From positions 1 through 30,763 of IMG/VR virus record IMGVR_UViG_3300035114_000006: DNA of 30,763 nt. One strand, written 5' to 3'. Every line of letters begins with the position of its first letter. The stretch's first letter is position 1. The DNA comes from a virus. Below, piece after piece: positions 2,127 through 23,528 of this stretch. The notes beneath the pieces are model-generated. The model made no database searches. It saw only the letters and a program-made list of their open reading frames with translations, and was not told the origin of the DNA. A program made the position numbers and the translations under genes.

Positions 2127-3212
2127 TTAGAACGGAACCTTGTCGCCCCTGTCTTTCAGCTTCTTCATGCGTTCGATCGCGTTCGACGCCTGCGTCTTCG
2201 TCAAGAGCTTCGACGTGTTGACGTGATAGAGCTTCTCCAGCGTCGCGCGGTACTCGACGTCGCCGAGCTGCAGCTCCTGCTTGAGGATGTGGATCGAAGC
2301 GAGCTGTTCGTTACTGGCCTTGGGTTCGATCGTGACCTCGCCCGTCGAGTGATCGGTGACTTCGATGCGCCCGGCATCGGTCAGCTTCTGCGTGACCGTC
2401 TTCGGCAGCGCCTTGTCGAGATGGCGCGCGATGTCGCTGGCGGTCGCCGCGCGTTCTCCCTTGTGGACCTTGACCGACTCGTCGACCGGAATCGGACCGC
2501 CCACCATGGCCGCCAGCGTCTCCGCGTTCGCTCGGTCGGCGGCCACGACCGCCGACGGTAGATCGGGCTGGGGCCACGCGCCCTCTTTCGCCGCGGTCAC
2601 CTTCGGCATGTTCCCGCCGCGCTTCGGCACGTCGATCTTCTTGATCCACTTACCCCCGTAGCAGATGGTGTTCTCTTCCTTGTACCTCTTGGTCCAGGAC
2701 CGATCCCAAATCTGCCAGGCGATGCCCAGGTCCTTGCAGCAGCGGACGAGCGCGTTGGACTTTGCGATCTCCAATGCCGTCCCGTAATCGCTCTTGGGGT
2801 TGGACGTGATCCATCGCCCTTCGCCCATCGCCTCGGCGATGAAGCGGCCCCCGACGTAGAGCAGCCCCGTGTAGAACACCGTCGGAGATGCCTCGCCCTT
2901 CGTCGTCGTGGTCGTGCGATCGACCACGGGCGCGCCGTTGCTTCGGATGGCCCAGCCGCCCATTCCGAAAGCGCGCACGAGACGCTGGCGATAGTGGACC
3001 TGCGGCATGTAGAGCTCGCCATCGTCGGGCTTCACCTGGATCTCGTTTTCGTCCAGCGGCGCGGCCAAGATCGCCTGCTGCTCGGGCGTGAACGGCGACG
3101 ACGCAATCCCGACGTAGGCGTTTTCGGCCGGGTCATGCACCGTGAGACCGCGTTCCTGATCGGTGTCCATCGCGCGTAGCGCAACGTCGGTAACTTCTGC
3201 CGTGGCGGTCAT
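2127..3212 (-). CDS. Rad52-type single-strand annealing protein
   Basis: A 361-residue protein whose core (about residues 55-172) matches the Rad52-like phage recombinase pattern. It has a YMPQVHYRQRLVRAFG stretch, a YTGLLYVGGRF strand pair, then GEGRW, SDYGTALEIAKSNAL and LGIAWQIWD, the conserved helix lining the DNA groove. The C-terminal third is Lys-rich with a helical segment (NEQLASIHILKQEL) like those used to contact SSB. It would anneal complementary strands in phage recombination or replication. The ATG overlaps the preceding stop (ATGA). The next gene encodes an SSB-like protein, supporting the role. No partner exonuclease is next to it; the VRR-NUC protein at 6141 is the only nuclease nearby. 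Confidence 0.75.
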   Translation of the reverse strand: MTATAEVTDVALRAMDTDQERGLTVHDPAENAYVGIASSPFTPEQQAILAAPLDENEIQVKPDDGELYMPQVHYRQRLVRAFGMGGWAIRSNGAPVVDRTTTTTKGEASPTVFYTGLLYVGGRFIAEAMGEGRWITSNPKSDYGTALEIAKSNALVRCCKDLGIAWQIWDRSWTKRYKEENTICYGGKWIKKIDVPKRGGNMPKVTAAKEGAWPQPDLPSAVVAADRANAETLAAMVGGPIPVDESVKVHKGERAATASDIARHLDKALPKTVTQKLTDAGRIEVTDHSTGEVTIEPKASNEQLASIHILKQELQLGDVEYRATLEKLYHVNTSKLLTKTQASNAIERMKKLKDRGDKVPF

Positions 3213-3775
3213 TCGTCACCTTCGGGCGGGTCAACCTGCTTGATCCAGTTCCGCGGGATGTCGTCGAGCGCGAACGCCTTGACCAACGCGACCGGGTAGT
3301 AGCCGCGATCCTCGCCCAGACCGGCGTAACGACCGTTGGTGTGCGGAGCATTCTGAAAGCCTCGATAGACCTCGAACGAAAAGTCGTCGAGATTGACGAC
3401 GTACGCCCATTCGCAGAACAGCGAGTCCTTCAGGAAGGCGTGACCGTCTGGGATCACCCCGTATTTCAGGTATCCGCCGAGATCACCCTGTAGCTTTCTC
3501 GTCAGGCAATACCAATCATCGGTTGATTGCTTGCTAACGCCCAGATCGGTTACGGGCGCGAGCTTCGCTTTCTGCTCGGCCGTCGGCGGAATCTTCTCGT
3601 CTATGAGAATCAATGCGCGCCCGGCGTCCCGCATCTTCTCGCGCCCGTCAGCAAGCCACTTCCGGATGAACTTGACGGCGTCCTTGCCGAGCCCGTCGGG
3701 GTAGCTGTCGAAGTGGCTGTAGGCGATCTTGTCCTGTCCATCGATCCTGATGCCGATCGCTCCTCTAGTTCCCAT
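3209..3775 (-). CDS. conserved phage protein of the MGTRG...DSYP type, unknown function
   Basis: A 188-residue protein beginning MGTRGAIGIRIDG with YSHFDSYPDGLG at about 19-30. This N-terminal pattern recurs in a family of small proteins of unknown function in phages and bacteria. No catalytic motif, signal peptide or membrane segment is seen. A strong ribosome site (GAGGAGGA) precedes the ATG. Its stop overlaps the start of the Rad52-type gene, so it is coupled to the recombination genes. Confidence 0.75.
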   Translation of the reverse strand: MGTRGAIGIRIDGQDKIAYSHFDSYPDGLGKDAVKFIRKWLADGREKMRDAGRALILIDEKIPPTAEQKAKLAPVTDLGVSKQSTDDWYCLTRKLQGDLGGYLKYGVIPDGHAFLKDSLFCEWAYVVNLDDFSFEVYRGFQNAPHTNGRYAGLGEDRGYYPVALVKAFALDDIPRNWIKQVDPPEGDE

Positions 3776-3905
3776 CGTCGTCCTCCTCGTCTCTCGGTTG
3801 CGGATTCAGCGCCATCTCGATGGCCCACATCTGCGCATACCAGCGCGCAATCTCGATGCTCGGCATCGTCGGAGTCTCGGTCGTCGGCTCGTCGTCGTCG
3901 GTCAC
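3765..3905 (-). CDS. 46-residue acidic protein
   Basis: A short gene filling the gap between two neighbours: GTG at 3905-3903 overlaps the upstream stop (GTGA), and its TAG at 3767-3765 lies just inside the next gene. The protein is acidic at both ends (MTDDDE..., ...DEEDDDGN) with a central amphipathic helix containing two Trp (IEIARWYAQMWAIEMA). The overlaps at both ends argue that it is real. Small acidic early proteins are sometimes DNA mimics or host-takeover factors, but nothing specific supports that here. Confidence 0.55.
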   Translation of the reverse strand: MTDDDEPTTETPTMPSIEIARWYAQMWAIEMALNPQPRDEEDDDGN

Positions 3906-4177
3906 TTGGACACCCGTGGGCCGAACTCCAGCCACGTCACGCGCACGCGATCGCGGATGCGCTCTGGCAACAGAGCGATGACCTCGTCGGCCTCGGCGCG
4001 GTTGAAGCAGGCGATCTCAATGGCGGAGTGAAATCCGCCGCCGAGAGCCTCCTCGGCCCTTCGCACAAGACCGCGCGGGAATCCTGCGCACCGTGGACAT
4101 TTTTCTTCGTGCTCGAAGACGACCACCTGTGAGATTGCGTCTGGGAATTCAGTACCGCACTCTGCGTGGAGGTTCAT
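3902..4177 (-). CDS. 91-residue unknown protein with a CxxC pair
   Basis: Start ATG at 4177 overlaps the upstream stop (ATGA). Cys27 and Cys30 (KCPRC) plus Cys7 could hold a metal ion. The C-terminal half reads as an alpha/beta segment (IEIACFNRAEADEVIALLPERIRDRVRVTW). Family not recognised. Part of the coupled early operon. Confidence 0.6.
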   Translation of the reverse strand: MNLHAECGTEFPDAISQVVVFEHEEKCPRCAGFPRGLVRRAEEALGGGFHSAIEIACFNRAEADEVIALLPERIRDRVRVTWLEFGPRVSK

Positions 4178-20733: not shown

Positions 20734-22101
20734 TTACGCAATCTGAGCGACGCCGTTCGCGCCCGGGAACGAGCACGAGAGGTTCGCGAGGTACTTCCAG
20801 CGGAGCTGGACGCCGTCGGCCGTCGCCAGGTCGATCAGCTGATCCTTTCCGGCGCGGCCGGCCATCTTGATCGGCTTGTTCCGCGGGCTGCGCAGGAACC
20901 ACGTGCGCATGTCGAGCGCGTAGAAGCGGTCCGAATCGCAGCCGGGCGCCGCGTACAGCGTGCACGGGCCCTTGGGGCCGATGTGGCGGATGCCCTCGTA
21001 GTAGGCGACCGCGGCCTCGCCGGTGCCGGAGTTGCGCACGTAGACCGCCTGGTTCTGGAGGCTGTCCTCGTACGCCTGGTAGAACTCCGGGTTGCACATC
21101 AGGACCCGCGGGTCGGCCTGGCGGTTGATCGAGATGCGGGTCAGCAGCGCGTTGACCGCCTGCTTGGGATCCAGGTTGCGCGCGTCGATGCGGACGCCGG
21201 CGAGCTTGTTCGGATCCACGCTCCGGTCGATGCCGGTGGCGTCGGAGCCCGAAGGCGCCGTGATCGGGATCCAGAGCTTGAGACCGAGCACCTTCAGCGC
21301 CGTGGTCAGCGAGCCCGAGATCTTGTCGGCCGTGTAGAACAGGAAGTGCGTGTCATTGGAGCCGCCGGCCCAGCCGCCGTTCGCCGTGACGGTGATGGTG
21401 CCCGCGTCGGTGTCCACCGCCGTGACGGTGAAGGACCCGGTATCCAGGGAGCCGCCGTTGACGGTCGCGCAGCTCACGCCGACGTCGCCCACCTGCCACT
21501 TGATCGTGTCGGTGCGCTGGCTGAGCGTCAGGACGAAGGGACCGCCGCCGGTGTGCGATCCGATCACGCCGCGCGAGCCGAAGCCGTCGCCGAACATGTC
21601 GTACTCGAGGTCTTCGGAGACCTTCCTCATGCAGCCTTCGCCGGCGTCGCCGAGGAGTTCCACGATCGCGCCGTCGTCGCTGTCCGAGACGTCGATTTCG
21701 GTGTTGTCGACGTTCTCCACCGCGTAGCTCTTGCCCCACGGCGTGATGAACTTCTTGCGCGACTCGCTGGACTGGTTCGTGATCGCGCTCGCGATGTCGG
21801 CGCCGTGGCCGGCGGTGCGGCCGATCTTGATCGCCTGGATGATCTGCTGGCCGTAGCCTTCGATCTTGTTCACCAAGCCGAAGAACACGTTGTCTCGGTA
21901 CGCTGCGTCCTCGTACGCGGCGCTGTACCAGTCCTTCAGGCCGGCGGCGGCGTTGTCGCTGATGTTCAGGATGGACAGCGCCAGCGGGACGATGCGCGTC
22001 CATCCCTTGAGGCGCGCGAACGCGACGAGCGCGACGGCGACCAGGACCAGCGGGGCGGCGTAGTGGGCCAGGGCGGCGAGAATCGTGTGGGCGATGGACA
22101 T
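20734..22101 (-). CDS. major capsid protein with N-terminal hydrophobic helix
   Basis: A 455-residue protein lying after the scaffold gene, with typical HK97-fold coat features: an N-arm (SDNAAAGLKDWYSAAYEDAAYRDN), a helix and strands in the middle, an inserted beta-domain around residues 180-260, and a C-terminal core (RVLMCNPEFYQAYEDSL; FYALDMRTWFLRSPRNKPIKM). It would form the icosahedral shell. Unusually, residues about 6-28 (HTILAALAHYAAPLVLVAVALVAFA) are a strong transmembrane-like helix followed by Arg/Lys (RLKGWTR). The start is firm: GAGGAAAAG precedes ATG 22101, and no ATG, GTG or TTG lies between this helix and the coat N-arm. By the positive-inside rule the coat domain would face the cytoplasm. 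See findings for the possible link to the CPBP protease. Confidence 0.8.
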   Translation of the reverse strand: MSIAHTILAALAHYAAPLVLVAVALVAFARLKGWTRIVPLALSILNISDNAAAGLKDWYSAAYEDAAYRDNVFFGLVNKIEGYGQQIIQAIKIGRTAGHGADIASAITNQSSESRKKFITPWGKSYAVENVDNTEIDVSDSDDGAIVELLGDAGEGCMRKVSEDLEYDMFGDGFGSRGVIGSHTGGGPFVLTLSQRTDTIKWQVGDVGVSCATVNGGSLDTGSFTVTAVDTDAGTITVTANGGWAGGSNDTHFLFYTADKISGSLTTALKVLGLKLWIPITAPSGSDATGIDRSVDPNKLAGVRIDARNLDPKQAVNALLTRISINRQADPRVLMCNPEFYQAYEDSLQNQAVYVRNSGTGEAAVAYYEGIRHIGPKGPCTLYAAPGCDSDRFYALDMRTWFLRSPRNKPIKMAGRAGKDQLIDLATADGVQLRWKYLANLSCSFPGANGVAQIA

Positions 22102-22117
22102 GGTCTTTTCCTCAGGG

Positions 22118-23131
22118 TCAGGGTTGACGGGCGGCGAGACGGGTGCGCTTCAAGATCTCGGCCTTCTTAGAAGCGAGGTCCTTGGAAGCGGGAGATGGTT
22201 CGGTTGATGCGCGGGCCGCGACGGACGGCTGCGACACGGCCGGTATGGTCTTGCGCGCGGGCGGGGGATCGGCGCCCTTCGGGGCCGGGGCGATGTCGGG
22301 CGTGCCGTAGCGCGCGGCGCGCGCGGCGAAATCCTTCTCGATGCGGTCGAGGCAATCGCGGACGAGCGCGGTCGCTTCCTCCTGGGTCGGCAGCCACTTC
22401 TCGCCCTTCGTCTTGCGCAACTCGGCCACGACCTTGCGGCCGGCGTCGATGGCGAGCCCGATGCCCTCGGATAGGTTCTCGTCGGAGCGCGACAGGCGCG
22501 GCCAACGGCCCTTCTCGGCGTCGATGACATCCTTGACGCCCGCGCGCCCCGCCTGCTCGGCGGCTTCGGCCTGCGTCTTGGTGGCGCGCTCCTGGTCGGC
22601 CTTCTCGCGGTCGTCCAGGCGCTTCTGGAGCTCGGCGATCTTGCGATCGTGGTCGGTCAGCTCCTTGTGCGCCGGGTTGTCCGTGCGCCGGAGATAGGCC
22701 GCCGACAGCTTCTCGATGTCGACGTCGGGGAACTCGTCGAAAAAGGTCCCCGGGTCGGCCTTCATGCGCTCGACCAGCGCCGCGTACTTGTCCTCGGTCG
22801 CGACCGGCGCGGCCTCGGGCTTCGGCGGGGCGGTGAGCTTCGTTGACAGCTCGGCGATCTGCGCCTTCAGCGCGGCGATCTCGCTCGTCGTGTCGGAGGC
22901 GACCGGCGCGGGCGTGGTCGGCGCGGCGGCATCGGTCGCAGGGGCCGGAGTCGAACCGGCGGGGGCGGGGTTATGGGCCCCGCTCGAGCCCAGCTCTCCC
23001 TGCTCTGTGCGTGCCGGATCACCGGCGCGGGCGCGCGCCAAGATCTCGGCCTTGCGGGACTCCAGCGACGCCGGGGGCGTCTCGGTGCCCGCTTCCGTTC
23101 CTTCCTGTCCCTCGCCCGACTGTGTGGCCAT
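22118..23131 (-). CDS. scaffolding protein
   Basis: A 337-residue, low-complexity, mostly helical protein directly upstream of the coat gene: Ala/Pro-rich N-terminal part, coiled coils (EIAALKAQIAELSTKL; DHDRKIAELQKRLDDREKADQ) and a basic C-terminus, the usual layout of podovirus scaffolds whose C-terminal helix binds coat. A short motif is repeated near both ends: SRKAEILARARAG at about 25-37 and SKKAEILKRTRLA close to the C-terminus. ATG 23131 is preceded by GGGTGA and the leader element. The CPBP gene's open frame runs into this gene's first ~113 bases. Confidence 0.75.
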   Translation of the reverse strand: MATQSGEGQEGTEAGTETPPASLESRKAEILARARAGDPARTEQGELGSSGAHNPAPAGSTPAPATDAAAPTTPAPVASDTTSEIAALKAQIAELSTKLTAPPKPEAAPVATEDKYAALVERMKADPGTFFDEFPDVDIEKLSAAYLRRTDNPAHKELTDHDRKIAELQKRLDDREKADQERATKTQAEAAEQAGRAGVKDVIDAEKGRWPRLSRSDENLSEGIGLAIDAGRKVVAELRKTKGEKWLPTQEEATALVRDCLDRIEKDFAARAARYGTPDIAPAPKGADPPPARKTIPAVSQPSVAARASTEPSPASKDLASKKAEILKRTRLAARQP

Positions 23132-23528
23132 TCACCCGGGCGCGCGCGGCACCGAAACTAACCGCGAGGTTGGCGATCAGGTGGGCGGCGACCGCGGCGG
23201 CCAGATCGCCGGTCAGCATCGTGATGCCGCCCAGCGCCAGACCGCACAGGAGCGCGAACGCAGCCCAGGCGAGATGCCGCGAGCGCGGGCCGGCGTGGCA
23301 GAGCGCGAAGGCCGCGCTGGAGACGATCAGGCCATCGGCCTGTAACAGCAGCCCGCGAAACACGATCTCCTCGCCCGCGGCCGCCGCCAGCGCCAGCACC
23401 ATCGGGATACGCAGGCCGTACGCCTCATTTCGCAGCGCGCGCGCCCACGCGAACCACGCGACCGCCAGCCGCACGGCACCGGCCATCGCCAGTCCAGCGG
23501 CGACGCCGGCGGCCGCGTGCCAGATCAC
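23019..23528 (-). CDS. CPBP-family (CAAX-type) intramembrane protease
   Basis: From GTG 23528 (overlapping the upstream stop as GTGA) the frame encodes 169 residues with several hydrophobic helices. All three catalytic boxes of the CPBP/Abi family are present and in order: EExxxR (Glu53, Glu54, Arg58 in GEEIVFRG), FxxxH (Phe74, His78) and HxxxN (His116, Asn120). These glutamic-type intramembrane proteases cleave within or next to membrane helices. The gene lies between portal and scaffold genes, where phages usually encode the prohead protease. After residue ~123 the frame passes through the leader element and into the scaffold gene, giving a basic, low-complexity tail of ~46 residues that the family does not need; a TAG in another frame at 23160-23158 would be the natural end. 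A host-derived moron is the alternative. Confidence 0.75.
   Translation of the reverse strand: MIWHAAAGVAAGLAMAGAVRLAVAWFAWARALRNEAYGLRIPMVLALAAAAGEEIVFRGLLLQADGLIVSSAAFALCHAGPRSRHLAWAAFALLCGLALGGITMLTGDLAAAVAAHLIANLAVSFGAARARVNGHTVGRGTGRNGSGHRDAPGVAGVPQGRDLGARPRR
23139..23158 (-). promoter_or_regulatory. late leader element, copy 3
   Basis: Begins GTTTCGGTGCCG and ends GCGCC; GGTGC and GCGCC can pair around CGCGC. It ends 7 bases before the scaffold ATG at 23131, and a GGGTGA ribosome site fills that gap. It overlaps the 3' part of the CPBP reading frame. Confidence 0.75.

Follow-up and report, generated by a model that had tools for sequence, protein, structure and literature searches.

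An anchor-like hydrophobic helix at the N-terminus of an HK97-fold coat protein, apparently specific to one clade of uncultured tailed phages

The locus described here poses the question of why a major coat protein of the HK97 fold should begin with a segment that resembles a transmembrane helix, and whether that segment is made at all. The coat gene (20,734..22,101, minus strand, stop included) encodes 455 residues, about 44–455 of which form the core, and lies in a 30,763-nt stretch of viral DNA (positions 1 to 30,763 of IMG/VR record IMGVR_UViG_3300035114_000006), referred to here as the window. A sequence-only reading had placed the feature at 21,990–22,101 and described residues ~6–28 as almost entirely hydrophobic and followed by RLKGWTR. 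Those coordinates are correct, covering coat residues 1–38 on the minus strand, and both the translation, which begins MSIAHTILAALAHYAAPLVLVAVALVAFARLKGWTRIVPLALS, and its hydropathy agree with the description: residues 1–29 are without Asp, Glu, Lys or Arg, and RLKGWTR follows (residues 30–36; 21,994..22,014, minus strand).

The identification of the gene product as a coat protein with the HK97 fold was borne out by profile, model and fold comparisons. The PHROG 9953 profile (major head protein, Mx8 family) matched it with E=3e-8, the best stretch being residues 264–451, and the protein is homologous to members of that family at ~16–23% identity. An AlphaFold2 model built from a 71-sequence alignment reached a pLDDT of 82, as against a useless pLDDT of 30 from a 3-sequence input. 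This model aligned with the coat of A-1(L) (7f38; Z 19.6, rmsd 7.5 over 302 aligned residues, model 31–455) and with that of HK97 (1ohg; Z 16.8, rmsd 3.5 over 236 residues, model 57–455), and the fold matches found by Foldseek and VIA-align span mainly residues 41–455, that is, the core rather than the extension. As modelled, the window coat is thus an HK97-fold major capsid protein, and its gene has the position of a capsid gene, after the portal and scaffold-position genes. Searches by tblastn of a cultured-phage collection gave nothing direct for the coat, a weak match leading to Rhizobium phage RHph_I3_18, and sequence searches among solved structures also gave nothing direct. Among genome contigs there were no close relatives of the coat, and one distant relative, in a Rhodobacteraceae MAG, lacks the extension. 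Compared with Mx8-type coats, the core carries a strand-rich insert (residues ~184–262; window about 21,552–21,316, minus strand) that is common to a large uncultured family and has diverged faster between window and sister than any other part of the core (dN 0.13–0.23).

Directly upstream of the coat gene is a gene for a 337-residue protein (22,118..23,131, minus strand) whose identity as the scaffold was inferred from its position, which is that of Mx8 p47 and its counterpart in RHph_I3_18, as profile searches with the protein found no family match. A basic motif recurs in similar form towards each end of the protein, as SRKAEILARAR.. and as SKKAEILKRTR.., with corresponding motifs, RAKKDAIIKSVRA.. 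and DQRKREILARVRAG, in L046 (4010–4987), a contig whose coat is 68% identical to that of the window. The paired motifs are perhaps two coat-binding ends.

The start of the coat gene is well defined. Its ATG at 22,101 is preceded by the ribosome-binding site GAGGAAAAG (22,105..22,113, minus strand), in which GAGG lies 8 nt upstream of the start codon, and the same GAGG occurs at the same spacing in L046 and in L045, which represents a 94% identical sister (L002/L045). The in-frame stretch upstream of the ATG consists of 16 open codons that include no ATG, GTG or TTG, while the next in-frame start downstream is a GTG at codon 72, well within the conserved core. No Shine-Dalgarno-like sequence precedes the ATC and CTG codons at residues 44–45. 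Initiation at an internal site was ruled out on these grounds, there being no ATG, GTG or TTG ahead of codon 72 (window) or codon 59 (L046), and no Shine-Dalgarno sequence before the core. The earlier argument that the ribosome site and the lack of an alternative start require the helix to be translated therefore holds, and, as far as the sequence can tell, the coat cannot be made without translation of the extension.

The extension comprises residues 1–43 (21,973..22,101, minus strand). Its best 19-residue Kyte-Doolittle mean (KD19) is 2.24 and its uncharged run is 29 residues long; a KD19 of at least 2.2 was reached by at most 2 of 20,000 random open 43-mers of similar GC. In the AlphaFold2 model, residues 3–31 (22,009..22,095, minus strand), which also stand out by hydropathy, are predicted to form one continuous, isolated helix (pLDDT about 70), followed by a disordered linker (low confidence at 33–47), an N-arm helix at 50–68 and then the full coat domain. 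The presence of the hydrophobic, predicted helical segment was confirmed by the sole usable start, the uncharged residues 1–29 and a KD19 that is rare in random 43-mers. The L046 extension, which begins MHGLINFLGTHWAALAVLSCALYALVRSLRFGASIGVALASILN..., has a KD19 of 1.66 and an uncharged run of 26 residues. Both extensions thus have the uncharged hydrophobic stretch of ~19 or more residues that is looked for in an anchor and are free of Asp and Glu, and in both the positive residues stand on the C-terminal side of the helix only (R30, K32 and R36 in the window; R27 and R30 in L046). The hydrophobic moment is low (0.14 in the window and 0.09 in L046), that is, the helix is not amphipathic. By a crude estimate, the insertion energy is borderline (+0.4 and +1.0), whereas an unambiguous anchor encoded in this genome gave −1.6.

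Such a helix was said not to be normal for HK97-fold coats, and this is true of the family to which the window coat belongs. We surveyed 115 distinct family coats with a visible gene start, among the matches listed, and 90 of them begin 0–4 residues from the core. A KD19 above 1.6 was found, among these same listed matches, in the window, its sister and L046 only; L181 is borderline (KD19 1.55, a 22-residue segment with positive residues before it and acidic residues after it), and all the others have values of 1.21 or less. Alignments and survey together indicate that the extension is maintained in the sister and in L046 and absent from nearly all other relatives, and the hydrophobic extension therefore appears, on sequence evidence, to be specific to one clade of uncultured tailed phages represented by three distinct sequences. 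A further relative, L130, was detected at 72% in a portal scan, on a contig that ends before the coat. A tblastn match to L118 from residue 15 was dismissed as a read-through of a stop, the L118 gene starting normally. Other kinds of N-terminal additions occur in the same coat family: a sub-group including L087, L088 and L107 carries a different Pro/Gly/Ser-rich leader of 16–29 residues (MAWPGAGTPPTPALNQ..), and the single sequence L181 has, around 2899–3000 and after a good Shine-Dalgarno sequence, a hydrophobic signal-peptide-like start, MKLKSMLVAFFCASATFLLDEKG, joined to the core, with a charge order opposite to that of the window. Open papers yielded no case of a transmembrane helix at the N-terminus of an HK97-fold coat, which is weak evidence of absence.

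It had been proposed that relatives whose coat genes begin at the core behind a ribosome site of their own would point to a recent or nonfunctional extension. Nearly all of the wider family do start in that way, but the consequence drawn from it did not follow. Of the differences between sister and window in codons 1–43, two are synonymous and two conservative. In L046 most residues of the extension have changed, and the uncharged hydrophobic helix and its positive C-terminal flank are kept; dN/dS against L046 is about 1.2 in the extension and 0.45 in the core. We simulated unconstrained drift from the window DNA to the distance of L046, with the simplification that L046 was treated as a descendant of the window, and the hydropathy, the uncharged run and the lack of acidic residues were all kept in 0.2–0.4% of the sequences that stayed open. 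Because a 68% identical relative retains the hydrophobic character despite heavy sequence change, the extension does not look like a recent nonfunctional accident, and it is apparently maintained in the clade. Sequencing error was likewise ruled out as its source, since the sister and L046 both retain it with start sites of their own. A composition that is kept while the sequence is free to change is the pattern expected of a membrane anchor, and less that of a packing surface.

The reading that we tentatively favour, while giving it slightly less than an even chance, is that the extension is a fast-evolving N-out/C-in membrane anchor that tethers the coat, or the early procapsid, to the cytoplasmic face of the inner membrane. 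Under the positive-inside rule, a helix with positive charges at its C-terminal end is oriented N-out/C-in, which places the coat domain in the cytoplasm. A reverse-signal-anchor helix of this kind would insert in the inner membrane, leaving its short N-terminus on the outer side and the arginines and lysine after it in the cytoplasm, so that the HK97-fold domain would hang by the flexible linker (~33–48) on the cytoplasmic face. Tethering could then concentrate coat subunits at the site where portal and scaffold start the procapsid. The insertion, topology, assembly role and release of the helix are all features that we infer. In its favour are the single Shine-Dalgarno start in two diverged lineages, the hydropathy, the charge order, the drift result, the low moment and the modelled isolated helix.

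Assembly in association with the membrane has a precedent among tailed phages in SPP1, whose procapsid precursors come together on the inner membrane (PMC13212656). The SPP1 attachment depends on the portal, its molecular basis being stated to be unknown (PMC13212656), and this dependence counts against a coat-borne anchor, as do the borderline insertion energy and the small number of distinct sequences, three, that have the feature. In addition, the N-terminal scaffold domains of HK97 face the procapsid interior (PMC10275583), which would make a closed shell of membrane-inserted N-termini topologically awkward. Since HK97-type N-termini face the shell interior, the tether would later need to be withdrawn or cut.

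The inward direction of HK97 N-termini is also the starting point of the strongest alternative, which had been raised earlier as a coat-inner scaffold segment. The helix would stay cytoplasmic and form hydrophobic bundles under the capsomers or against the scaffold in the procapsid lumen, as an assembly segment of the delta type that is later buried or removed. In HK97 the N-terminal extension serves as a scaffold domain on the inside and also contacts the portal (PMC10275583), the modelled position of the N-arm in the window coat agrees with that of HK97-fold N-arms, and a borderline insertion energy would permit a soluble bundle. However, a separate scaffold-position gene exists, and the extension is only ~42 residues long, with an uncharged helix that is not amphipathic. 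Unlike a contact surface, the extension changes more rapidly than the core, and its positive charges cluster on the C-side only in both lineages. An internal segment consequently fits less well, and we consider it unlikely, though worth keeping in mind.

A second alternative, which we hold to be improbable, is that the ancestral coat start moved upstream into the scaffold–coat spacer, giving a hydrophobic leader that is dispensable and is tolerated, trimmed or ignored. Many relatives have a spacer of 120–165 nt between scaffold and coat, so the gain of an upstream start codon there is a possible origin for the extension, and the distance from the scaffold stop to the core start in the window is 145 nt. 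Protein-level constraint is relaxed, as is evident from the dN/dS of about 1.2 to L046, and several relatives carry leaders of other kinds (14–29 residues). Yet neutral drift rarely retains all three of the features measured, and neither lineage has acquired a charged helix residue, an internal start or a stop.

The release step that a membrane anchor would need directs attention to a candidate partner in the head-gene module, a CAAX-type (CPBP/Rce1-like) membrane protease ORF (23,019..23,528, minus strand; Pfam PF02517, E=7e-10). It has the motifs EEIVFR, FALCH and HLIAN (boxes EExxxR, FxxxH and HxxxN), its GTG start overlaps the stop of an upstream 52-residue gene (TCGTGATC) between portal and scaffold, and its overlap with the scaffold-position start, in the window and in L045, is an unusual position for such a gene. 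Among the window proteins scanned, a subset of the ORFs, it was the only protease found and no prohead protease was detected. An intramembrane protease of this type, encoded where a prohead protease is commonly found, might release membrane-anchored coat, and the gene, with all three boxes, is present just upstream of the scaffold in both window and sister. No PF02517 match was found in the 36-kb L046 contig, which may be incomplete, and the portal-to-scaffold-position gap there (2997–4010) holds opposite-strand frames (148 and 124 residues, and others). A host enzyme could conceivably substitute. An obligate link between extension and protease was rejected, as far as this contig shows, so the protease is at most an optional partner, and release by it is very improbable. 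Equally far-fetched is the fullest version of the idea, that every coat subunit is born membrane-anchored and that the inner membrane is where the shell itself, and not the portal alone, is put together (in the extreme, around a lipid core) until freed by a phage CAAX-type protease that replaces the prohead protease.

A cleavable export signal peptide is hardly credible: the segment is N-terminal and hydrophobic, has an AFA motif at residues 27–29, and has a signal-peptide-like parallel in the start of L181 (MKLKSMLVAFFCASA), but there is no positive n-region (no Lys or Arg before residue 30) and no conserved cleavage site (the AFA is not kept in L046), the positive residues after the helix oppose export, and a coat that had been exported would be lost to packaging. 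The suggestion of a fused former membrane protein gene was discarded, as the scaffold–coat gaps of 106 relatives contain no convincing hydrophobic mini-gene, the exceptions being a TTG frame of 24 codons in L039, which is doubtful, and, at a poorly delimited locus, a borderline one continuing into the start of the coat.

An anchor built into the coat, if real, would offer a directly testable mechanism by which procapsid precursors attach, and one of few instances in which a conserved shell fold has gained a role at the membrane. Should the helix lie inside, it would be unusual among scaffold segments for its lack of charge. The window coat thus belongs to a known family and departs from it by this feature, for which a membrane function is plausible.

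Comparison with known systems places the window coat among, and apart from, several of these. Mx8-type phages (PHROG 9953; Myxococcus phage Mx8 and RHph_I3_18) share with it a homologous coat core and the order portal, small gene(s), scaffold position and coat; unlike the window coat, their coats start at the core without a hydrophobic extension and lack the insert at ~184–262. The large uncultured IMG/VR family, including L016 (~400 residues), is ~22–31% identical over the whole core, insert included, whereas nearly all of its members begin MSLDLT.. or MALNMT.. at the core and, among the matches listed, KD19 never exceeds 1.6 outside the window clade. The delta domain of HK97 gp5 is similarly an extra N-terminal segment before the N-arm of an HK97-fold coat, but it is an interior-facing coiled coil of 103 residues that replaces a separate scaffold (PMC10275583); the window extension, an uncharged helix within ~42 residues beside a separate scaffold-position gene, is not of that ~100-residue coiled-coil type. 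The proposed case would resemble SPP1 in having procapsid precursors on the inner membrane face. In SPP1, however, attachment is portal-dependent (PMC13212656), whereas in the window the candidate anchor is on the coat itself, which would achieve attachment in another way.
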